A stretch of DNA of 35,663 bases, from positions 1-35,663 of IMG/VR virus record IMGVR_UViG_3300037231_000019, one strand, 5' to 3'. The notes beneath the pieces were generated by a model. The model was not told the DNA's origin. It ran no database searches and worked only from the letters and a program-made list of their open reading frames with translations. The DNA comes from a virus. Shown piece by piece: positions 651-35,522 of this stretch (its first letter is position 1; each line of letters begins with the position of its first letter). The position numbers were made by a program, and so were the translations under genes.

Positions 651-944
651 GTGGTGCAAGCATTTCTCAATGGGCCAGAGGTTAATCAACAGAGGGGGGG
701 TTGGCAGAAGTCATTACCACCTACTCAACCTCTTACCCGTGCGAAGCGTGGCATCATTGAAGCGCCGAAGTTCCAAGAGGCTCATATGATTGGAACGATG
801 GGTGGACTAAAGTCGAATGTATCAGGTACTTGGGTATTGACACTTCTTATCGACTCTGATTCATATGAAGAGGCGACCAAGTTGGGGAAGGCTCATGGGT
901 TGGCGTTGGAGATAGGGATTAAGAGGAAGAACCGTAATGACTAA
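651..944 (+). CDS. hypothetical protein upstream of terminase
   Basis: The reading frame after the preceding stop codes for a plausible globular protein. Its C-terminal half (about 50 residues) has alternating hydrophobic and charged residues and a Lys/Arg-rich end. The start is uncertain. GTG at 651 or 654 gives about 97 aa but has only a weak GAAGAA upstream. ATG at 786, preceded by AGAGG with 5 bases spacing, gives 52 aa. The stop overlaps the ATG of the next gene at 937. A run of seven G lies at 694-700. No family was recognised. Confidence 0.5.
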   Translation: MVQAFLNGPEVNQQRGGWQKSLPPTQPLTRAKRGIIEAPKFQEAHMIGTMGGLKSNVSGTWVLTLLIDSDSYEEATKLGKAHGLALEIGIKRKNRND

Positions 945-1419
945 CACCGCCTTTGACCCGTGGCAACTCGACATCGACGCCCCCGACTGGCTTACCCATG
1001 TCGCCACTCGCCTGCTCGAAGTAGGCGTCCCGCCGACCGCCATCTCCAAAGCCTTCTACGTCGAACTCGAAGCGGTCAAGGACCTTCAATCCACTCTCCA
1101 CATCGCTCGCTACGGTTCGGCCGAACTATCCGAAGCCATGTTGTTCTTCATGTGGAAGATGATTGACGATGCTTACGAGATGCTCGAAACCGCACCACTC
1201 AATCAGAAGGCCCGATTAATGACTACGCTCTTAGCTCGGGCCTCGTCTATGGTTCAGGCGGCGGACCCCGAAGGCATGGAGAAGATGCGTGCCGAGTTTA
1301 TGAAGTTGACATCCTCTATCCAATCAACCGAATCGACAGTACCCTCTATCTATGCCAGCCCTGAGTTTAGTCCCGTGGACCGAGAACCTAACGATCCAGA
1401 AGAAGGACCTCCAGGTTGA
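937..1419 (+). CDS. putative terminase small subunit
   Basis: The 160-aa product is mostly helical and lies directly upstream of the large terminase gene, which it overlaps by 68 bases. Residues about 19-50 resemble a helix-turn-helix of the kind small terminase subunits use to bind packaging-site DNA. Residues 60-130 are helical and could form the oligomerisation region, and the tail is Pro/Glu-rich. AGAGGAAG at 922-929 is a good ribosome binding site for ATG 937. Length fits the usual 130-180 aa. The assignment rests on position and general character, not on a diagnostic motif. Confidence 0.6.
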   Translation: MTNTAFDPWQLDIDAPDWLTHVATRLLEVGVPPTAISKAFYVELEAVKDLQSTLHIARYGSAELSEAMLFFMWKMIDDAYEMLETAPLNQKARLMTTLLARASSMVQAADPEGMEKMRAEFMKLTSSIQSTESTVPSIYASPEFSPVDREPNDPEEGPPG

Positions 1420-2959
1420 GCCCATCGACCTCTCGGACGACTTCGCATGGGCTCAGGACGAACTACGCATAGAGATCGAACGCCAATACAATCTTGGCCT
1501 CCCTGTTCGGATTATTATCCTAAAGGGGCGCCAACTTGGTATATCGACATTCTCAGAAGCTACTTTATTCAACTGGACCTTCATCCACCCCGGCACCCGG
1601 TCATTAGTGATCGCACACGAAACAAAAGCGGCGCAGCATCTATTCGATATGACCAAGTTGATGTGGGAGGAATGGCCGTTCCATGAACTATTCACCGAGA
1701 AGCACAACACGATCAAAAGTCTTGCTTGGTTGGAGACTCGATCTTCTATGTCGGTTGCCACCGCTCGAAATGCTGGATCAGGGCGGTCATTTACATACCA
1801 CGCCGTACATTGTTCTGAGTGTGCTTTTTGGGAAGACCCGGAAACTCTTATGGTTGGACTTAACCAGTCTATCCCTTACAAGCATGGCACCATCGTCATT
1901 ATTGAATCCACCGCTAATGGCATTGGAAACTGGTATCACGAAGAGTGGGTCCGTGCGGTTCACGGCCAGTCGCAATACGTTCCATTGTTCTTCCCGTGGT
2001 GGAAGCACTCCGAATACGCCATTCCCAATACGACTCTTAAACAATATGACCTCAACAAGACTGAACGAGACATTCAAGAGAAGTACGGCCTGACCCTTCC
2101 TCAACTCGCCTGGCGCCGTCACACAATCAAGAACGACTGTCTTGACGATGAAAAGATGTTCAACCAGGAGTACCCGTGTTCGCCGCAGGAAGCATTCCTG
2201 TCAACTGGTACTAACGTCTTCCCGCTTGAGAAGTTGGACGAGTGCTTCGAGCCTCAACGTGGAGTCACCGGCTCCCTTGTCAATGCGAACGGTAAGCTCA
2301 CTTTCATTAAGGACGCCACTGGTCCACTCACTATCTATAAGTGGCCCAGTAACAACAAGATACACGGCAAGTACGTTGTCGCTGGTGATCCCTCGAAGAC
2401 GACGTATGGAGATGGTGCATGTATTCAAGTCATCAATCGTCTGACTCTCGAACAAGTCGCTGTCTGGCATGGTCATATTGATCCTGTCCCTTTCGCCCAT
2501 ATCCTGATGGAACTAGGATACTTCTACAACACCGCCCTCTGCAACTCCGAGATAGAAGGCCCCGGTTACGCCACCATCGGCGTCATGCTCGACCAGTCCT
2601 ACCCCGATATCTGGCAACACCGTTGGGCAGACAAAGCACCGGGCAAAATCTCCGGTTCATTCGGGTGGTCAACCAACTACCAACGCAAGCATTGGGCAAT
2701 GGCGCAAGTAAAGTTCCTCCTCGGCCAACGTGCTCTACTCATCCATGACGAGATCACCTATGACCAAATGACTACCTATGTGACCCTGAATAATGGGGAG
2801 CTTGGCCCGGCGAGTCTGAAACTGTATGATGACGCAGTAATGGCCTATGCAATCGCCATAGTCTCGACCATGACAGAGCCGCAGCTCCCCCGAGAGGTTG
2901 CCCCAGAAGCGCAGGTGTATGACCTGTTCGACCGGCCACCGTGGGATGCGGTGGGATGA
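1352..2959 (+). CDS. terL: terminase large subunit (DNA-packaging ATPase/nuclease)
   Basis: This 535-aa protein is the motor that pumps DNA into the procapsid and cuts the concatemer. The ATPase half shows a variant P-loop, KGRQLGIST (residues 58-66), in which the usual Lys before Ser/Thr is Ile, a Walker-B-like segment around residues 150-160 (HCSECAFWED), and the coupling motif ESTANGIGNW (185-194). EYPCSPQEAF (residues 273-282) is typical of the linker between domains. The nuclease half begins near VVAGDPS, with Asp346 as a likely metal ligand. The start lies inside the small-subunit gene without a clear ribosome binding site, so translation is probably coupled. Its TGA overlaps the next ATG. 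Confidence 0.93.
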   Translation: MPALSLVPWTENLTIQKKDLQVEPIDLSDDFAWAQDELRIEIERQYNLGLPVRIIILKGRQLGISTFSEATLFNWTFIHPGTRSLVIAHETKAAQHLFDMTKLMWEEWPFHELFTEKHNTIKSLAWLETRSSMSVATARNAGSGRSFTYHAVHCSECAFWEDPETLMVGLNQSIPYKHGTIVIIESTANGIGNWYHEEWVRAVHGQSQYVPLFFPWWKHSEYAIPNTTLKQYDLNKTERDIQEKYGLTLPQLAWRRHTIKNDCLDDEKMFNQEYPCSPQEAFLSTGTNVFPLEKLDECFEPQRGVTGSLVNANGKLTFIKDATGPLTIYKWPSNNKIHGKYVVAGDPSKTTYGDGACIQVINRLTLEQVAVWHGHIDPVPFAHILMELGYFYNTALCNSEIEGPGYATIGVMLDQSYPDIWQHRWADKAPGKISGSFGWSTNYQRKHWAMAQVKFLLGQRALLIHDEITYDQMTTYVTLNNGELGPASLKLYDDAVMAYAIAIVSTMTEPQLPREVAPEAQVYDLFDRPPWDAVG

Positions 2960-3105
2960 GAGTAGCTTGGGGTTGGGAACCTGATCGGGATATGGGATGG
3001 CGTTATCGTCGCACCCTATCGGAAGAGGACAGAGAACTATTTGATAATCTCTCTTGGATGTCTCAACTATTGATTTCCTCTGCCTACGACCGTAAGAGTG
3101 CCTAA
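2956..3105 (+). CDS. small hypothetical protein (49 aa)
   Basis: The ATG overlaps the TGA of the terminase gene (ATGA) and the stop overlaps the ATG of the next gene (TAATG), so this 49-aa gene exactly fills the gap between two firm genes. The product is Trp/Arg-rich at the N-terminus with an acidic middle (SEEDRELFDNL). Perfect coupling on both sides is the main evidence. No function is suggested. Confidence 0.7.
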   Translation: MRVAWGWEPDRDMGWRYRRTLSEEDRELFDNLSWMSQLLISSAYDRKSA

Positions 3106-3476
3106 TGGCTAACTATTCCTATAAGTGCCCATCCTGCAAGGCTGTCTACACCCTCGAAGCCTCTATTCACGACGACCTTCCCGAACGTCGTCCATGCCCT
3201 CGTTGCAACTTCAATGGCTCCACTCGCTCCTATTCATTCAACCTCGCCCCATCATTCCAAGAGCACTTCAATAACTCTCTAGGCGAATACGTCACGAACA
3301 ACAGATCATTTGAAGATGGTCTAAAGCGTCGATCCGCAGAGATGTCGGAGCGTATGAGTCAAGACGTCAACTACACTCCACTCTCTCCCGCCGAAATGAG
3401 AGAAGCCTCCTCACACGGAGTAACGGAAGAGGGACTATACGAGTCTCGTAAACAACTACACGACTCTACCCAATGA
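3105..3476 (+). CDS. FmdB-like zinc-ribbon protein
   Basis: The 123-aa product opens with a zinc ribbon made of CPSC (Cys8, Cys11) and CPRC (Cys31, Cys34), as in FmdB-type putative regulatory proteins, which often occur between terminase and portal in phages of actinobacteria. The remaining 85 residues are charged and probably helical. The gene is coupled to its neighbours: its ATG overlaps the previous stop, and its TGA overlaps the portal ATG. A role in DNA binding or packaging is possible, but it is inferred only from position. Confidence 0.75.
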   Translation: MANYSYKCPSCKAVYTLEASIHDDLPERRPCPRCNFNGSTRSYSFNLAPSFQEHFNNSLGEYVTNNRSFEDGLKRRSAEMSERMSQDVNYTPLSPAEMREASSHGVTEEGLYESRKQLHDSTQ

Positions 3477-13267: not shown

Positions 13268-13818
13268 CAACTAGTCAACCCGGTATCCAGCCACAAGGTG
13301 CTACTAATAACGGTAACCTGTTGGTTCCGAATAAACAGATGCAACCGTTCTCTCAACCCTCATATGGTACCGACATGCGAGCCATCGAGCGTTGGTGTAA
13401 TAGCCTAATAGCATCAATCGCAGCTGGACTATATAAGTCCCTCACGGGTGCCGGTACAACAACTACTCCAGGCGATTTAGTACAAGAGGGTGGCTTCACA
13501 ATAAACGATATTCCTGGTGATGGCATTCACTTCTTCACTAATGGTGAGATGCTCATGGAGTCAGTTGGCCAGGCTAGCTTCGAGTCATTTTATAACAACC
13601 TTAGTCTAAGCGCATTGAACGGTGCGGTATTGGTAGAAGCCGGGTCTGGCCCTATTCAACTAGCGGCAGGCCCCAATGGAGCTATGAACGTCTTTACCGC
13701 CGACGTCCTGGCTGATCTTGAAACTCCGGTCCCGCCATATGAGCCGGGGTGGGGATTCACGAACGATGGCCATATCTATTTTTACCCAAGTGGAGGACCC
13801 TGGGGATTGAAGGTCTAG
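13264..13818 (+). CDS. minor tail/virion protein
   Basis: A 184-aa product whose ATG overlaps the stop of the nozzle gene. Residues 30-60 are helical, followed by a Gly/Thr-rich beta region with NNLSLSALNGAVLVEAGSGP (residues about 111-130), which resembles short beta-helical or fibre-like repeats. The end contains aromatic/Pro-rich strands. Translation coupling with the tail gene supports a structural partner role. Not recognised. Confidence 0.55.
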   Translation: MTTSQPGIQPQGATNNGNLLVPNKQMQPFSQPSYGTDMRAIERWCNSLIASIAAGLYKSLTGAGTTTTPGDLVQEGGFTINDIPGDGIHFFTNGEMLMESVGQASFESFYNNLSLSALNGAVLVEAGSGPIQLAAGPNGAMNVFTADVLADLETPVPPYEPGWGFTNDGHIYFYPSGGPWGLKV

Positions 13819-13839
13819 CGGAAACCTCCGGTTTCCCGC
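13818..13839 (+). terminator. hairpin after minor tail gene
   Basis: GGAAACC (13820-13826) pairs with GGTTTCC (13830-13836) across a three-base loop, extended by GC pairs with one bulged C. It lies directly after a stop codon in a 56-base gap. There is no T-tract, so a processing or stabilising stem is as likely as a terminator. Confidence 0.45.
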
Positions 13840-13874
13840 ACCTTCCCGTAACGTATAAGGAGTAAGATTTCGAC

Positions 13875-16408: not shown

Positions 16409-19400
16409 ATGGTCGATAAGTCAGGCACTCAGACCTTTACGCAATCGTGGTCCAAGACAGTCAACTGGGCTAAGCAAGCCGGTATCCCTCAATCCGCCTA
16501 CTACCCGGTCTACCAACTCGACTCGCAACGCCTCCTCACCGGCACGCCTATGTCGGAATCCGAACGTATCCGTGCCATTCAAGCTGCCTCCGGACTCAAC
16601 TATTCCTCTGCTCTCCCAACCGATACCCACTCCGACTCTGCTGTCGTCGCCAACGTCAAAACCAATGCCGCCAATATCTTCACTGGGCTCGACCCGATCT
16701 CTCTCGTCAAGAACATCTTCGACACGATAACCAACACAGTCGAGCACCCATCCTCCCTTCTCCACCCCCTCGCCCTTCACTCCCTCGCCTCATGGATACC
16801 CGGTCTAACCGACTTTGCCGAACTCATGGAGGGTAAGGCCGGGCTCAACACACTCCTCCAGAACCCCTTAACCTCTCTTCTCGATGTCCTCCCTCTAACA
16901 GACTACCTCCCCAAGATATTGGCCCACACCGACCAAGGCATCGCTATGGCCGCTAAGCTCGGCATCGCTCCCGACGAACTCTCGAAGATGTCCGCCGCCC
17001 AACTTTCATGGGCACTCGGTAAGAAACTCCCCCTAAAGAACCAAGGAGTCATCGCCACCACCGACGCCGCTGGCCAAACCTCTCTCGCCTCCATGACGGT
17101 TGGCGACCAGCTAAACCTCTACCGCAACGCCAAAAACGTCGGCTCCGAACAATCCGAACTCAACAAGGGACTCATCTCTGCCGAACAAAAGGGCACGAAG
17201 CTAGTCGAAGATATGACTCGCCCGATGATCGAAGCCATCGGTCGCCTCTCCCCTGCCGACAAAGACCTCGCACTCCAAATCTACAAAACGGACTTCCGCT
17301 CTCCCGAAGACATCGCTTTAGACCCCTCCATCCCTCCGCAGGTCCGCAATGCTCTCGACGCCACCTTCTCCACTGAACGCCAAGCTCTTCAACTCCAAAT
17401 GCAGGCCGGGAAAATAGCCGACGTCAAAACAAAACTCGTCAACGATCAAGGTGTCGTCACCGATCAACTCGAAAAGTATCTCGTCACTCCCGGCTCCCGT
17501 GGTGAGAAAGTCCTCCGAGCCGGTACCCTATCCGACGAAGCCCACGCCGCCCATGAAGCCGCCTCTACCCAGTTCAACTCCCTTCTCATAAAGGTAGACC
17601 AGAGCGACAAGTCACTCGACCGATTCGTCTCCACTCTCCACTCCACTTCCGCCGCCGTTTTCCAATCAATCAAGGCCTCCATCTCATCTCTCCCAGACGA
17701 TGCCGCCGAACGTGCTCGCCAAGCCCTCCCATCCGCTGAACGATGGGATCGAACCGTCCCCTCCAACACAGTCGTCCTCCGCAACCTCCTCGGCCTAGGC
17801 CCAGACGAACGCATCTCACTCCACTCGATGAACGCCATTCGTGATCTCTTCTCTCCTGGCGGGCTCATAGACCAAATCTATAAGGCCTACGAGAACCACG
17901 ACTTTAAATCAATGTCCGATTACTCCAAGGTCGCTGTCCGAAAGTTCGACAATAAAGTATTCAAATCCCTCCCCGGTGGACCCAATGGCCATCTCCTCCA
18001 AATCCGCAACACCCTAAAGGGCCTCCAGCAATACTCCCTTGTCCGCTCCAAGCTCATGACAACCATGGATCGACTCTGGAATGGTAAGTCCAAGTTCGAT
18101 AAGACCTCCATCTCCTACCTCGCCGCCGCTGCCCAGAAAGCCGACCAACACTTCATCGAGACTTCCATCCGCAATCCCCCTGGCGTATGGAAGTCCGCCT
18201 ATAACGATGAACTTGTCCGCCAGGTCCAAACCTCGGAGAAAGCCGCCAACCTCATCCCCGACACCCTTACCGCCCTCCACAAGCAGGACCCGAACGCCTG
18301 GCCCGATACCGCCGTGTCCAAGCTCGAAGCCGATCCACGCACAATAATCGAACTCGTTTCCCGTGCCTCCAAAGACTCCTACGGCAACCCGATGCTCCCC
18401 GACCTCCCCGTTGCCCTCTGGAAAGAGATGTCCGACAACGCCTACAACGAACTCGCCTCCCTCCGAGCCCGTGGCCTTGTCCCCCACTACCTCCCACATC
18501 TCTCCCCGAACGACATCAATAAAGAAGCTCGCCCCACTTACAACCTCAAACTCTCCGCCCTCCGCCCCAAATCCGAAGCGGCCATCCATGAGAACATCTT
18601 CGACTATTCCTCATCAGTCTCCGACATCCAACTCGGATTCCTCAAAGGCGCCAAAGAAGCCCTCCACGATGACGTCCTCCAAGAGTTCCACGAAGAGTGG
18701 GTGAAGCCTCACCTCCATAACGCCGCCGATCTCCGAGCCCTTCTCGCCAACTACCTCGCTCCCGACATCCAGGCGAACTCAGAGAAAGTCATAGCCGGTA
18801 CCGCCACCGACAACGTGGACGCTCTTATCCAGGACCAACTCAAAAAGATGGGACTCGTCACCTGGAAGCCCGAATCAGTCTTCGGCAATCTCTCACTCCC
18901 CAAGATGGACGCTGAATACTACATAGATGGCAACCTCGCCAAGGCAATGGAATCAACCGTCCAGAAGATGGACAACCCAACAAACAACATCATGGACAAA
19001 GGGACGAACCTATTCCGCCACTCTATCCTCGGGCTCTCCCCTCGCTTCACCCTTCACATAACCGTTGGCGGATCAGTAATGGTCGCCTTCCGTGGTAACA
19101 AAGAAATGTTCTCTTTCCTCCGAGATGCCGTCCACTACGGTCGCACTGGCAAACTCACTGACGAAACCCTGGCCAAATACCCCGGCCTTGGCGAACGTAT
19201 CGACTCGGCATTCGGTACATCATCCTCCCAAGAGGGTGCCGAGGACATGAAGTTCCACTATCTCGGCGGTAAGCAACTCGGCAATCTCGCAATAGATGAA
19301 CATCTCGCTAACCACCCACATATCCAGGGTGCCCTAGCTCGCCTCAAGGCCGCAGCCAATCTCAACTTCAAGTTCACCCGTGCAGTAACCAAAGCCCAGA

Positions 19401-20470
19401 AGGCTCTCGTCTATCTCGCCGGTTTTGAACGTGCCCTAAAAGATGGATCATTCTACGATGATGTCTACACTCCACAACTTGACGCCGCTGGCAACCCAGT
19501 CCGCCACCCGATAACCGGCAAAGAAATCTACTCTCACTCCCGTGAGAAAGTAGATATGACGGCCGACCAGGCCCATGAAGCCGGGATGCAAGCCGCCATG
19601 TCCGTCATGGGCGATATGCGACATATGACTCCCTTAGAACGTGGCGCTCTTCTCAGAATCTTCCCCTTCTACGGTTGGACAAAACACATCCTCTCCTATG
19701 TCCTCTCCTACCCAGCCGACCACCCCTACCGTGCCACGTTCCTCTCACAACTCGCCACACAAGACTCCTCGAACATCCCATCTGGCCTCGATACCCGTAT
19801 CCAACTCCTCTTCTTCCTCGGCCAGCCTGACGCCCAAGGCAACGTATCCGCAGTAGACACTCGCTTCCTTGACCCGTTCCGAGACACGGCCAACTACGCA
19901 TCGTGGACAGGGTTCTTCGAATCTCTCAACCCGATCATCGCCGCCCCAATCGCCGCCATCGACCCCAACGCATCATTCGGCGGTACTCCTCTCTACACGA
20001 ACTTAACCTTTAACTCTCTCTATGGCATCAAAGCAGCCGGGCCCCAAGGCAACATCTTCACCTCCATAGAACAAATAGTTCCGCAGGTATCCGCCTTGGA
20101 CGCCGCTCTCAACCTCTCCGGCCAGTACTCCTACCTCAAAACAAACGATCCAGGCGGATTCGCCAAGATGGTCGCCAACGCTCTCAACGTCCCATTTGCC
20201 GATGTCCAGAAGATCAACCTCCGCCAGATGGCCGCCAAGTCGGAGATATCCCGCTACCAGATAGCCGAAGCAGACGCCTATAACGCCCTCACCACTGGCG
20301 ACTTCTCCACACTCGACAAGTACCCAGCAGGAGCCACGGTCCCCGATCCACTCGGGACCCAGTACAACGTCACGCCCGCCTACCTCAAAGCTCTCTACAA
20401 CCAAACCGAAAAGCAGTACGGGCTCCCGCCGACCGAAGCGTTGCCGCCGCTCCCAACGCCTGCGATTTGA
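16409..20470 (+). CDS. giant internal virion/ejection protein (1353 aa)
   Basis: By far the largest gene. The protein is mostly helical, without a visible lysozyme or other enzyme motif. Hydrophobic stretches around residues 85-165 are interrupted by Pro/Gly. Near residues 1075-1110 lies ALLRIFPFYGWTKHILSYV, a pattern of the type 'R-PF-WT' seen at the end of large ejected or polyvalent phage proteins. Its size and place at the end of the virion block match T7 gp16/P22 gp16-type proteins that span the envelope on infection. AAGGGTGTCTA precedes the ATG. A terminator hairpin follows at 20527-20553. Confidence 0.65.
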   Translation: MVDKSGTQTFTQSWSKTVNWAKQAGIPQSAYYPVYQLDSQRLLTGTPMSESERIRAIQAASGLNYSSALPTDTHSDSAVVANVKTNAANIFTGLDPISLVKNIFDTITNTVEHPSSLLHPLALHSLASWIPGLTDFAELMEGKAGLNTLLQNPLTSLLDVLPLTDYLPKILAHTDQGIAMAAKLGIAPDELSKMSAAQLSWALGKKLPLKNQGVIATTDAAGQTSLASMTVGDQLNLYRNAKNVGSEQSELNKGLISAEQKGTKLVEDMTRPMIEAIGRLSPADKDLALQIYKTDFRSPEDIALDPSIPPQVRNALDATFSTERQALQLQMQAGKIADVKTKLVNDQGVVTDQLEKYLVTPGSRGEKVLRAGTLSDEAHAAHEAASTQFNSLLIKVDQSDKSLDRFVSTLHSTSAAVFQSIKASISSLPDDAAERARQALPSAERWDRTVPSNTVVLRNLLGLGPDERISLHSMNAIRDLFSPGGLIDQIYKAYENHDFKSMSDYSKVAVRKFDNKVFKSLPGGPNGHLLQIRNTLKGLQQYSLVRSKLMTTMDRLWNGKSKFDKTSISYLAAAAQKADQHFIETSIRNPPGVWKSAYNDELVRQVQTSEKAANLIPDTLTALHKQDPNAWPDTAVSKLEADPRTIIELVSRASKDSYGNPMLPDLPVALWKEMSDNAYNELASLRARGLVPHYLPHLSPNDINKEARPTYNLKLSALRPKSEAAIHENIFDYSSSVSDIQLGFLKGAKEALHDDVLQEFHEEWVKPHLHNAADLRALLANYLAPDIQANSEKVIAGTATDNVDALIQDQLKKMGLVTWKPESVFGNLSLPKMDAEYYIDGNLAKAMESTVQKMDNPTNNIMDKGTNLFRHSILGLSPRFTLHITVGGSVMVAFRGNKEMFSFLRDAVHYGRTGKLTDETLAKYPGLGERIDSAFGTSSSQEGAEDMKFHYLGGKQLGNLAIDEHLANHPHIQGALARLKAAANLNFKFTRAVTKAQKALVYLAGFERALKDGSFYDDVYTPQLDAAGNPVRHPITGKEIYSHSREKVDMTADQAHEAGMQAAMSVMGDMRHMTPLERGALLRIFPFYGWTKHILSYVLSYPADHPYRATFLSQLATQDSSNIPSGLDTRIQLLFFLGQPDAQGNVSAVDTRFLDPFRDTANYASWTGFFESLNPIIAAPIAAIDPNASFGGTPLYTNLTFNSLYGIKAAGPQGNIFTSIEQIVPQVSALDAALNLSGQYSYLKTNDPGGFAKMVANALNVPFADVQKINLRQMAAKSEISRYQIAEADAYNALTTGDFSTLDKYPAGATVPDPLGTQYNVTPAYLKALYNQTEKQYGLPPTEALPPLPTPAI

Positions 20471-23466: not shown

Positions 23467-23676
23467 ATGGACATATCGGGTCGTTTCGACTATCACAAGC
23501 CAGACCAACGCAAGAGTGAACTTCACACCGATGTCCGTAACGAGTGTCATCGCCTTGCGGACCTTCTCAATACTTTTCTTCCCGAAGGGAGGGAGAAGTC
23601 ACTCGCAATAACCCATCTTGAAGAGACAATGTTTTGGAGCAATGCGGCAATCGCACGTTCCAACCCTCTTGACTGA
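23467..23676 (+). CDS. Acb2/Tad1-hairpin-like anti-CBASS sponge protein
   Basis: The 69-aa product closely matches the Acb2-type hairpin family (formerly DUF7681-like): RFDYHKP near the N-terminus (6-12), a first helix (residues about 17-36), the turn LPEGREKSLAITHLEE (38-53) and a second helix with MFWSNAAIAR (55-64). Acb2 hexamers sequester cyclic nucleotide signals and so block CBASS, and in some cases Thoeris, host defence. A longer frame from 23434 overlaps the helicase gene; ATG 23467 with GGGAG 9 bases upstream is preferred. This fold is known to occur in phages of many hosts. Activity here is inferred. Confidence 0.8.
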   Translation: MDISGRFDYHKPDQRKSELHTDVRNECHRLADLLNTFLPEGREKSLAITHLEETMFWSNAAIARSNPLD

Positions 23677-32617: not shown

Positions 32618-33003
32618 GTGTGTTGCTCGCTCTATTCTCCGGTATTGGTTCGGCACTCGCTGTCTTCGTTCTGTCTCTCCTCAAAGGTAACTACAACTCA
32701 AGGGTACGTATGAAAGCTCAACAGTTAGACAAATCCAAAGCGGAAGACCTCGACCTCCGAGAAATGGTCACAACGATCTACTCCGCAATGGTCACACCCC
32801 GTGCGACCCCGTTCAATCGCAACCCGACTCCCGGACTCATCGACCGTGTTGCCTCGATTGACGAACGGCTATTCGACCACGACAGGCAACTCAAGGAGCT
32901 GGCGTCCGCTCTATCCCAGGTCGCCCATCGTGCCGCCCTGGAAGTCAACGAGCAGTCTGTCGAGCGTGAGCGTGTCCAGTCCAGGGATGCCGGTAGGGAC
33001 TGA
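32572..33003 (+). CDS. one-TM holin or spanin candidate
   Basis: The 143-aa product has a basic N-terminus (STQHRPKRLRP), one transmembrane helix (residues about 14-38, LIGVLLALFSGIGSALAVFV), and a charged helical tail (residues 45-143) with heptad-like Leu/Ala spacing. The ATG is 46 bases inside the end of the endolysin gene. One-helix proteins with long cytoplasmic or periplasmic coiled coils act as holins or spanins in some phages. The neighbouring endolysin gives context. A bidirectional terminator follows. Confidence 0.65.
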   Translation: MSTQHRPKRLRPNLIGVLLALFSGIGSALAVFVLSLLKGNYNSRVRMKAQQLDKSKAEDLDLREMVTTIYSAMVTPRATPFNRNPTPGLIDRVASIDERLFDHDRQLKELASALSQVAHRAALEVNEQSVERERVQSRDAGRD

Positions 33004-33008
33004 CAGCA

Positions 33009-33044
33009 AGAATCCCGGCCCCTCAGTACCGGAGCCGGGATTCT
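33009..33044. terminator. bidirectional terminator
   Basis: AGAATCCCGGC (33009-33019) pairs perfectly with GCCGGGATTCT (33034-33044), 14-base loop. It separates the rightward lysis genes from the leftward operon, so it serves both strands. The last leftward stop codon lies about 35 bases away. T-tracts are weak on both strands. Confidence 0.72.
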
Positions 33045-33501: not shown

Positions 33502-33574
33502 GGAAACCCTCTCCCACGTACCAGAGAAAGCAGACGATCCATATAACGGCAATGACGTCTATCAAGCCCTGCAT
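33494..33574 (-). CDS. 26-aa membrane microprotein
   Basis: ATG 33574 overlaps the stop of the upstream gene (TAATG) and encodes 26 residues, nearly all hydrophobic in the middle (IDVIAVIWIVCFLWYV), with an acidic-aromatic end. The stop overlaps the zinc-ribbon start. One transmembrane helix with tight coupling on both sides suggests a real membrane peptide, possibly an early toxin or envelope-targeting factor. Confidence 0.55.
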   Translation of the reverse strand: MQGLIDVIAVIWIVCFLWYVGEGFHA

Positions 33575-33978
33575 TATGTGTATATCTTCCGCACGTAGGC
33601 CCTAGCCTGTCGCAAGGTGTCGAACCGTTGAAACCCTGACAGGTCCGCTGTACTCCCGTCATCCTTCAATGCCCGAACCGTGTACAACCTCGGACTCGCA
33701 TAGTCGAACTGCTCCGACGTAATGAACACTCGCCCATGAGTCACCCCTGGCGCAATCCGACTACGGAAGAATCGCATAGCGTCCCTGTCGAAGAAATGAA
33801 AGCCTGCCTTGTCATTCGCACGCTTCATCATTTCGATGGTGTGGAATGGGCCATAAGCTTCGATACGCTCAACCTGGTCCGGCCATTCTGGATTATCGGG
33901 CCACGATGTCACGATAACTAGAAAGCAGTCACCATTAGTCTGGCCTTCCTCTAAATGTGTCTCCGTCCTGCTTGCCAT
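33574..33978 (-). CDS. hypothetical protein after ribozyme 1 (134 aa)
   Basis: ATG 33978 with GGAG five bases upstream (the ribosome binding site starts three bases past the ribozyme) gives 134 aa. A GTG two codons earlier is less likely. The product has an alpha-beta look (DCFLVIVTSWPDNPEWPDQV, then GRVFITSEQFDYASPRLYTV) and a basic helical end, LRQARAYVRKIY. It is not recognised. It is preceded by a complete hammerhead ribozyme that would give its mRNA a defined 5' end. Confidence 0.68.
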   Translation of the reverse strand: MASRTETHLEEGQTNGDCFLVIVTSWPDNPEWPDQVERIEAYGPFHTIEMMKRANDKAGFHFFDRDAMRFFRSRIAPGVTHGRVFITSEQFDYASPRLYTVRALKDDGSTADLSGFQRFDTLRQARAYVRKIYT

Positions 33979-33989
33979 GTTCACTCCAA

Positions 33990-34041
33990 AGTCTCATCAG
34001 GTGGCCTATCTGACCACGACAGGGTTTCCCCTGTTTCGACT
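33990..34041 (-). ncRNA. type II hammerhead ribozyme 1
   Basis: Reading the minus strand: AGTC (stem II, 5' side), GAA, stem III ACAGGG with GAAA tetraloop and CCCTGT, cleavage base C (34018), stem I GTGGTC / loop AGATA / GGCCAC, core CTGATGA, and GACT (stem II, 3' side). All invariant core bases of hammerhead ribozymes are present. Stem II is the open helix, so it is type II. The stop TAG (34042-34040) of the clamp gene overlaps its first bases. Cleavage would fall between 34018 and 34017. Confidence 0.9.
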
Positions 34042-34657
34042 AGTTAATCCGTACCGGCATGACAAGCATCATTGCGTCCCATTCATCCCAGACCATCGTC
34101 CAAACGCTTGCCTTGCTATTCGACAGATTCTCACACTTCCATAACCTGTTCGTATCCTTCGTCCCGTCAAGCCTATCTATCTTGTCCAGCTTGGCCAGGT
34201 TCGCACTGGACAGCCCGGTCAACTCATGGGTGTAGTCGCCAGTATCCTGCAATAGGTTCTCCCATTTCGGATAAGTCCCTTCAACGGGCGCCGATGACAA
34301 CACTGTCCCGTAGGTGCTCATTTTTGCAAGCTTGCCGAACTCGTCAACAGTCAATCTCACTTCCAGGTTCGCGACCTCCCGTGCTAGTAGCGTCTTACTC
34401 CACATTTTTGCATCCCTTACGTCAAGCTGGAACTCTCCACACGTCAACACACCTTCCGAATACGCCATAGTCTGTACCAGCATGACGTAACTATTCGTGC
34501 CGATAACCCGAATCTCATGCTCTTTGATCTCGAATCGCAATGTTGCTAGCAATGGACGGCTTGCGTCGTCGCCAGCGGCCACGATTCCATTCTTAAGCAA
34601 CTGTCCCAACTTGCGACAGTTCATTGTGATATCAATCATGCCTATTTCATCTGCCAT
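34040..34657 (-). CDS. sliding-clamp (DnaN-like) protein
   Basis: ATG 34657 (GAAGGG 9 bases upstream) is the real start; the longer frame begins at the CTGATGAGACT of the ribozyme core. The 205-aa product has a DnaN-like pattern: TLRFEIKEHEIRVIGTNSYV (about 40-59), GTYPKWENLL (about 129-138) and an ending DEWDAMMLVMPVRI, matching the last strand and the 'MPMRL' end of bacterial beta clamps. It is about two thirds of a standard clamp. No DNA polymerase occurs in the window, so it may load host or other polymerase. Ribozymes lie at both ends of the gene. Confidence 0.65.
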   Translation of the reverse strand: MADEIGMIDITMNCRKLGQLLKNGIVAAGDDASRPLLATLRFEIKEHEIRVIGTNSYVMLVQTMAYSEGVLTCGEFQLDVRDAKMWSKTLLAREVANLEVRLTVDEFGKLAKMSTYGTVLSSAPVEGTYPKWENLLQDTGDYTHELTGLSSANLAKLDKIDRLDGTKDTNRLWKCENLSNSKASVWTMVWDEWDAMMLVMPVRIN

Positions 34658-34673
34658 GTGTCTAATCCCTTCA

Positions 34674-34725
34674 AGTCTCATCAGGTTGGCTACTTGCCAA
34701 CGACAGGGTTTCCCCTGTTTCGACT
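34674..34725 (-). ncRNA. type II hammerhead ribozyme 2
   Basis: Minus strand: AGTC, GAA, stem III ACAGGG-GAAA-CCCTGT, cleavage base C (34702), stem I GTTGGC / loop AAGTA / GCCAAC, core CTGATGA, GACT. Stem III is identical to ribozyme 1, while stem I differs at several positions on both sides and keeps all pairs, a compensatory change. The TAG of the 46-aa gene (34726-34724) overlaps its start. Cleavage would fall between 34702 and 34701. GAAGGG, the clamp gene's ribosome binding site, follows. Confidence 0.9.
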
Positions 34726-34864
34726 AGATCGCTTCTTTATATGCGATAGCCCACCCTTCCATTATTAAGTCATCGTCGCTCTTGTCGCCATCGTAGTAAG
34801 CCACGATTGCCACGTAGTACCCCGGTCTGTCGAGTATGTCCCGCTCCATCTCGTTTAACTTCAT
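34724..34864 (-). CDS. small hypothetical protein (46 aa)
   Basis: ATG 34864 overlaps the stop of the previous gene (TAATG); TAG overlaps ribozyme 2. The 46-aa product has a helical N-terminus (MKLNEMERDILDR), a Tyr-rich strand (PGYYVAIVAYYDGDKSDDD) and a helical end (MEGWAIAYKEAI). It has the fold-like order of a small alpha-beta protein. Not recognised. Confidence 0.65.
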   Translation of the reverse strand: MKLNEMERDILDRPGYYVAIVAYYDGDKSDDDLIMEGWAIAYKEAI

Positions 34865-35178
34865 TACATTTCTTCCCATGATTCATTCGACCAATAATAG
34901 AACTCTCCGTCATGCCATCCGAACGAATACCCTTCAATAGCAAGGTTATCGTTCATCCATTGTTCTGCCTTGTCGCCTAACTCATATACCGTTTCGTATA
35001 TGTCGGCCCGGTCGCTGTCGGCATAGTTGTATTCGTTCACCCGGTATTGATCTAGGTCCGACAACTTGAAACCGTTGTCATGTGCTATGTCGATCATGTG
35101 GGTTATCGCATACTGGCCACGATGGCCATCTACGTAGCACCCGGTTTCATTCTCCGACCATTTCGTTACGTCTGCCAT
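34864..35178 (-). CDS. acidic hypothetical protein (104 aa)
   Basis: ATG 35178 with AGAGGG 8 bases upstream (after ribozyme 3). The product is strongly acidic and aromatic, without a membrane segment: NETGCYVDGHRGQYAITHM, later DNLAIEGYSFGWHDGEFYYW. Acidic small phage proteins of this kind often mimic DNA or bind host enzymes, but no family is visible. Stop TAA overlaps the next ATG. Confidence 0.65.
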   Translation of the reverse strand: MADVTKWSENETGCYVDGHRGQYAITHMIDIAHDNGFKLSDLDQYRVNEYNYADSDRADIYETVYELGDKAEQWMNDNLAIEGYSFGWHDGEFYYWSNESWEEM

Positions 35179-35193
35179 GTGTCTACCCTCTTA

Positions 35194-35245
35194 AGTCTCC
35201 TCAGCGTGCCTATCTGACACGGACGGGCCGTAACCCGTTTCGACT
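35194..35245 (-). ncRNA. type II hammerhead ribozyme 3 (variant core)
   Basis: Minus strand: AGTC, GAA, stem III ACGGG with loop TTACGG and CCCGT, cleavage base C (35222), stem I CGTGTC / AGATA / GGCACG, core CTGAGGA, GACT. The core has G instead of U at position 7, the one core position known to be variable (CUGANGA). Stem III is different from the other two but still paired. The loop AGATA of stem I equals that of ribozyme 1. Stop TAG (35246-35244) of the 66-aa gene overlaps the start. Confidence 0.87.
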
Positions 35246-35444
35246 ATTGGAATGTTTCGCAACGTTGCGTGAACGGTATCGAGTCACCCTTGCGTACCTT
35301 GCCTGGCACCTTAAGTATCGTCACGTTCCGGTATTGGGTATTACGCCATTTCCAGGCAGCCTCTTCCATCCTGAACGTCCGCTCCACGTATCGAGTGAAG
35401 TCCATTCCACGTCCGTTACGTATCAAGCACAGTGTGTATGTCAT
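35244..35444 (-). CDS. small basic protein (66 aa)
   Basis: ATG 35444 lies 9 bases after the stop of the 22-aa frame. The product is Arg/Lys-rich with aromatic residues (CLIRNGRGMDFTRYVERTF, then WKWRNTQYRNVTILKV), probably a compact beta-alpha protein. Upstream AGGATGG can bind the ribosome. No family recognised. It is the first sizeable gene of the leftward operon, and its stop codon overlaps ribozyme 3. Confidence 0.65.
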   Translation of the reverse strand: MTYTLCLIRNGRGMDFTRYVERTFRMEEAAWKWRNTQYRNVTILKVPGKVRKGDSIPFTQRCETFQ

Positions 35445-35453
35445 ACCACCATC

Positions 35454-35522
35454 CTACCCTCTCAATGCACGCTTGTCTACACTTGTCAACCCTTTTCTTT
35501 CATCATCATCCATCATCATCAT
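35454..35522 (-). CDS. 22-aa leader peptide candidate
   Basis: Four in-frame ATG codons followed by three GAT encode MMMMDDDERKGLTSVDKRAL plus RG, with GGGAG 8 bases upstream. It ends 9 bases before the next gene's ATG. A TTGACA (35489-35484) lies inside it but has no good -10. The ATG/GAT run is a trinucleotide repeat. Beyond 35523 there is no gene I can support: only short frames and the end of the window. Confidence 0.4.
   Translation of the reverse strand: MMMMDDDERKGLTSVDKRALRG

Follow-up and report, generated by a model that had tools for sequence, protein, structure and literature searches.

Three type II hammerheads in a phage operon

The window, by which we mean the whole 35,663-bp IMG/VR virus record analysed here, carries on its minus strand three motifs that are very probably real type II hammerhead ribozymes, located at gene junctions of one operon. 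We favour, as a fairly probable reading, that these ribozymes process the minus-strand polycistronic RNA into separate, independently stable and translated mRNAs.

Each motif is a 52-nt element that matches a strict type II descriptor, folds into the hammerhead as its minimum free energy (MFE) structure, and scores highly in R1, a covariance model built from 19 aligned ribozymes of other contigs with the window left out. Hammerhead 1 (35194–35245; 58.0 bits, E = 3.2e-16) comprises stem II AGUC/GACU, stem III ACGGGU/GCCCGU, stem I CGUGUC-AGAUA-GGCACG and the core CUGAGGA, in which N7 is G; its C17, after which the cut is predicted, is position 35222. In hammerhead 2 (34674–34725; 52.8 bits, E = 1.4e-14), C17 is 34702 and stem I is GUUGGC-AAGUA-GCCAAC, and in hammerhead 3 (33990–34041; 55.8 bits, E = 1.7e-15), C17 is 34018 and stem I is GUGGUC-AGAUA-GGCCAC. 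The stem III sequence is identical between hammerheads 2 and 3. The order of elements is the same in all three: AGUC-GAA-A, the stem III hairpin, U-C17, the cut, the stem I hairpin and CUGANGA-GACU, with stems II, III and I of 4, 6 and 6 bp and a loop I of 5 nt. In both the descriptor and the MFE folds, stems I and III are closed and stem II is open, as in the type II layout. The invariant core is complete in every copy (C3 U4 G5 A6 N7 G8 A9, G12 A13 A14, A15.1-U16.1 and C17), position 17 is not G, and these bases are intact in each copy although the stem I sequences differ.

The descriptor matched the window at exactly these three places, and 200 dinucleotide shuffles of the window yielded no match. 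With the filters off, the next best place in the window scored 9.4 bits in R1. Given the empty shuffles and the R1 E-values of 3e-16 to 1e-14, chance is excluded for the three motifs; the folding-energy z-scores (-2.6, -2.8 and -1.4) are moderate only. The best explanation takes the three ribozymes to be catalytically competent, their cleavage being predicted from the sequence. A fourth occurrence of TAGTCGAAAC, at 23483–23492 on the minus strand, was rejected since no core surrounds it, and a BLAST match of a ribozyme to Salmonella phage SM5 was discarded as a chance 23-nt match in a coding region.

Rfam (release 15) returned no hammerhead match in the window, either at the gathering cut-off or at E ≤ 10. 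The window ribozymes thus lie below the 37-bit gathering cut-off of RF02276 (Hammerhead_II) and are not filed as matches to that family. They have the core, the element order and the open stem II in common with RF02276, and differ in belonging to a compact loop ANNNA subtype that falls below the cut-off or is not reported. In contrast, many ribozymes obtained with the same search patterns score above it, including many Hammerhead_II matches on seven other contigs. The subtype with a 22-nt stem I is detected by the Rfam model, whereas ribozymes with a 17-nt stem I on two other contigs (L145 and L023) reach 24.9–32.6 bits. Since these other 17-nt members also stay below 37 bits, the Rfam miss reflects a limit of the model rather than a defect of the sequences: the Hammerhead_II model is tuned to the form with the larger stem I. 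It misses much of the compact subtype, and arrays are therefore probably under-counted in phage annotation.

These results agree with most of what the first-pass annotation had read from the DNA: three full type II hammerheads on the minus strand at these positions, with the CTGANGA, GAA and U-C core and three stems, stem II as the open helix in one common architecture, predicted cuts after 34018, 34702 and 35222, and all of them within a single phage operon, as the minus-strand genes and the terminase and portal matches described below confirm. It had also let the claim hang on a significant Hammerhead_II score. By that rule the Rfam scan speaks against it; the motifs themselves stand on their R1 scores of 52.8–58 bits, and the rule fails on the limit of the Rfam model.

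Genes around the ribozymes

On its plus strand the window encodes the large subunit of a terminase as well as a portal protein, and these matches, together with the IMG/VR record, establish its phage origin. A 1353-aa ORF without Pfam match (16409–20470), a large virion-type protein, is common to the window and a related record (G032; 32–35% identity). The ribozyme-bearing operon occupies the minus strand between about 35444 and 33077, facing convergent plus-strand genes with their end at 33003. Its transcript is probably early. A candidate sigma-70-type promoter, TAGACA-17-TAGGAT (35451–35479, minus strand), is weak with 9 of 12 matching positions and is not clearly above chance, the scan having found 5 where 2.9 were expected. 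A candidate terminator at the convergent junction (33014–33033, minus strand) is likewise weak (1 found, 1.5 expected).

Gene 1 (35244–35444; 66 aa, without family) ends with a UAG at 35246–35244 that overlaps stem II of hammerhead 1. It is followed by gene 2 (34864–35178; 104 aa, without assigned function) and gene 3 (34724–34879; 51 aa), which overlap at a coupled junction that has no ribozyme; the UAG of gene 3 (34726–34724) overlaps stem II of hammerhead 2. Gene 4 (34040–34657), the stop of which overlaps stem II of hammerhead 3, shows weak similarity to DNA polymerase sliding clamps or processivity factors (PF02767, E = 9.5e-4, below the cut-off; phrog_947, E = 2.2e-5; phrog_3007, E = 7e-7). 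Its start is likely 34657 rather than the mechanically listed ATG at 34681; because the core CUGAUGA holds an in-frame ATG (34679–34681), gene callers may place the start there. Gene 5 (33574–33978), encoding a DUF7447 protein (PF24239, E = 4.2e-19; phrog_4655), begins with a Shine-Dalgarno (SD) sequence GGAG and an ATG at 33978 directly 3' of hammerhead 3. All five genes are on the minus strand. At each of the three ribozymes the UAG begins at -5 relative to GAA, so that the stop codon lies partly within stem II, and the next start lies 6–17 nt beyond the third base pair of stem II by script count. Several hammerheads on the same strand thus flank single genes of a phage-type operon, the arrangement described by Perreault et al. 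(2011).

Arrays in other viral contigs

Two pattern scans of IMG/VR, read with the descriptor, recovered 284 type II hammerheads, many as rows of 3–8 on one strand; the records were picked by patterns that fix TAGTC or AGTC, and these counts give no share among all phages. R1 found at least one ribozyme in all 44 records checked, several of which held 6–8, and a 35-kb record (G020, containing L145) held 10. A further scan for the window's subtype (loop C-ANNNA-G) gave 23 stretches, including a 42-kb contig with seven R1 matches. Three hammerheads in a row are ordinary among the survey contigs. The first-pass annotation had called such a series unusual, a view contradicted by these many contigs with 3–8 copies and one with 10, and by a published triple array (PMC3088659).

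A few of the same contigs carry, in total, 12 type III and 3 convincing type I hammerheads against the 284 of type II. They have the core of the window's ribozymes, and the open helix differs. L020, L021, L029, L035, L039, L048, L061, L066, L073 and L077 share a type III hammerhead of almost constant sequence, GTGTCTCAGGCAAYCAGCCTGACTGATGAGCGRCRGTATYCGCGAAACAC, and the contigs with this motif mostly carry type II hammerheads too. A type I copy is present in L018, L033 and L062; further type I matches in L128, L130 and L167 were judged false, being near-identical copies with long loops and weak stems. An 8-kb contig (JABXKD010000121.1; L199/L202) binned as Candidatus Lokiarchaeota has four type II hammerheads between small genes (805–3179), two of them with the window's loop subtype, and may represent an archaeal virus or else phage DNA that was binned wrongly.

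Placement relative to codons and duplication with the leader

Of 249 ribozymes, 96% have an ORF stop immediately upstream, 93% a start immediately downstream and 89% both; the values at random places of the same contigs are 34%, 54% and 19%. Only two stops of this set pass position -4. The counts were redone on 105 non-seed ribozymes to meet the seed bias of the patterns, and in 89 of these the stop begins between 4 and 13 nt ahead of GAA, most often at -5 and -6. The ribozymes are under strong positional constraint with respect to stop and start codons, and the proximity to stop codons could partly reflect the compactness of phage genomes.

The two flanks of the ribozymes behave differently. 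In the 30 nt on the 3' side, 34% of array neighbours are more similar than the 99th percentile of pairs from different contigs, as compared to only 1.6% in the 30 nt on the 5' side. Within arrays, 47.5% of the leaders following ribozymes are alike, versus 2.6% of those of ribozyme-free genes on the same contigs. Within the window, TAGACACATGGCAGA recurs in the leader of gene 2 and in that of gene 4. Since the leaders are alike and the upstream flanks are not, the ribozyme and the downstream leader duplicate together, which links the ribozyme to the start of the gene that follows; the sequences indicate that ribozyme and ribosome-binding leader are copied as one 5'-leader cassette.

A predicted covarying contact between loop I and the tail

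The first base of loop I is predicted from covariation to make a tertiary contact with the base just 3' of stem II (the tail base). In the window the partners would be A35215 and U35193 in hammerhead 1, A34695 and U34673 in hammerhead 2, and A34011 and U33989 in hammerhead 3, all on the minus strand. In 101 ribozymes whose stem I has 17 nt, A at the first loop I position goes with U in the tail in 40 of 40, and U goes with A or G in 57 of 61; no search pattern fixes the tail base, and kinship among the sequences lowers the effective count. The loop I–tail contact of type II hammerheads is thus found as a single-base covariation, with A facing U in the window copies, and from it we infer the pairing type. 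The contact would correspond to the loop I–tail pseudoknot of Perreault et al. (PMC3088659), reduced to one base. In the stems of homologues, both sides have changed with the structure kept in 13 of 17 pairs, a figure that is partly built in by a homologue set chosen for pairing, from which the loop I–tail contact is excepted. We therefore place more weight on this contact than on the stems.

Proposed function of the cuts

End-dependent RNA decay proceeds through 5' sensing by RppH and RNase E and through 3' exonucleases. Under the processing model, each ribozyme would cut itself after C17 at its gene junction, yielding gene 1, genes 2 and 3 together (520 nt), the clamp-like gene 4 (684 nt) and the RNA from gene 5 onward. 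As stems I and III are both closed in the type II form, one cut would leave hairpins flush at both ends: the upstream message would end 3' in stem III, carrying a 2',3'-cyclic phosphate, and the downstream message would begin 5' with stem I, carrying a 5'-OH. A closed hairpin flush at each new end is a property of the type II layout only; the type I and III layouts, unlike it, would not produce one at both. Both new ends would resist end-dependent decay, and the genes of one transcript would become independently stable, translated mRNAs. The motifs, the way they are conserved and placed, and the duplication of the cassette are observations; cleavage in the cell and a benefit to the phage are inferred, and so, from what is generally known of RNA decay, is the protection of the ends.

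The same end chemistry fits another fate, since RtcB joins 2',3'-cyclic phosphates to 5'-OH ends. The cuts might serve to form circular mRNAs, the core reforming across the ends of a unit and ligating them, or the host RtcB joining them. Each unit would indeed begin with stem I-CUGANGA-GACU and finish with AGUC-GAA-stem III, and the stem II AGUC/GACU common to all three window ribozymes makes neighbouring halves compatible. However, in arrays with varied stem II, neighbours were compatible in 32 of 51 cases against 29.1 ± 1.7 after shuffling, no significant excess (p ~0.09), and Perreault et al. sought circular or spliced products and found none (PMC3088659), which leaves circularization highly unlikely. 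A role for the ribosome is suggested by the stops that cluster 5–6 nt ahead of GAA and hardly ever reach into the core: a terminating ribosome would cover stem II and GAAA and block folding, and cutting would be confined to times when translation of the upstream gene is not completed, which would set the ratio of products or uncouple the later genes. Yet the same pattern follows from tight gene packing combined with a requirement that ribosomes stay off the core, and we regard such a switch as unlikely. To the same low degree we entertain a broader scheme in which a mobile 5'-leader cassette, consisting of a compact hammerhead and an SD with the stop in stem II, is carried by many phages and splits their early operons by ribosome-gated cleavage.

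The remaining alternatives make little of cleavage. The ribozyme–leader repeats might persist mainly as recombination seams for the swapping of small early genes, with cleavage secondary; the cassette-like duplication fits this, as do related phages in which the flanking genes differ and the ribozyme stays after gene 1. But stem pairing is kept through two-sided changes and the loop I–tail bases covary, which requires selection on the RNA and not on DNA identity, making seams as the main reason quite improbable. That the motifs are inactive relics or plain hairpins, such as transcript-stabilizing stems, could be argued from the absent Rfam score. Against this, three copies that differ in stem I all retain the complete invariant core, the loop I–tail contact, which lies outside that core, is preserved as well, and no U tract follows the hairpins in the window; we consider relics extremely improbable.

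Published arrays and related phages

Serial phage hammerheads have been published since 2011, and the window is a further example of a known arrangement. Perreault et al. (2011) described hammerheads of types I, II and III that cluster at genes of prophage operons, demonstrated cleavage of tandem arrays both in vitro and in E. coli, showed that a triple array around ardA of A. tumefaciens cleaves, and proposed that a long phage RNA is cut into gene-length mRNAs, but could not establish the purpose of the cuts (PMC3088659). A 2017 review repeats their account and calls the biological role open (PMC6155905). The window resembles those arrays in ribozyme class, permutation, several copies between genes of a phage-type operon, a stem II of few base pairs and a loop I that contacts the base or bases 3' of stem II. 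It differs in its 17-nt stem I, whose loop has 5 nt, in showing one covarying contact where their pseudoknot typically has at least 4 bp, and in its flanking genes, clamp-like and DUF7447 instead of ardA. Activity is demonstrated for their arrays and predicted for the window ribozymes. In the literature searched, we did not find descriptions of the docking of the stop in stem II, the duplication of ribozyme–leader cassettes or the covariation between loop I and the base that follows stem II. Concrete handles on the purpose of phage hammerheads come from several features: arrays with as many as 10 copies, constrained placement, cassette duplication and a hairpin at both ends.

Searches by nucleotide sequence, by the clamp-like protein and by the gene 2 protein revealed no close relative of the window among phages or in IMG/VR. 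The phage of record G032 (L204) is related to the window phage (terminase 44% and portal 42% identity) and has a single R1-detected ribozyme of the window's subtype, on the strand opposite to the structural genes. This ribozyme lies directly 3' of the UAG of the first small gene, which follows a TTGACA-like element, and its flanking genes have no detectable similarity to those of the window. Between these two phages the ribozyme appears to outlast its neighbour genes. A homologue of gene 2 (32% identity, E = 5e-17) lies directly upstream of a hammerhead in L040 (9846–10169), within a hammerhead-bearing operon of an otherwise different phage. In L216, from the related phage, GTGCAAGGRTCGTRNAC is repeated four times, imperfectly, at 13460–13860, ahead of the first gene in the operon with the hammerhead; these repeats look like repressor operators.
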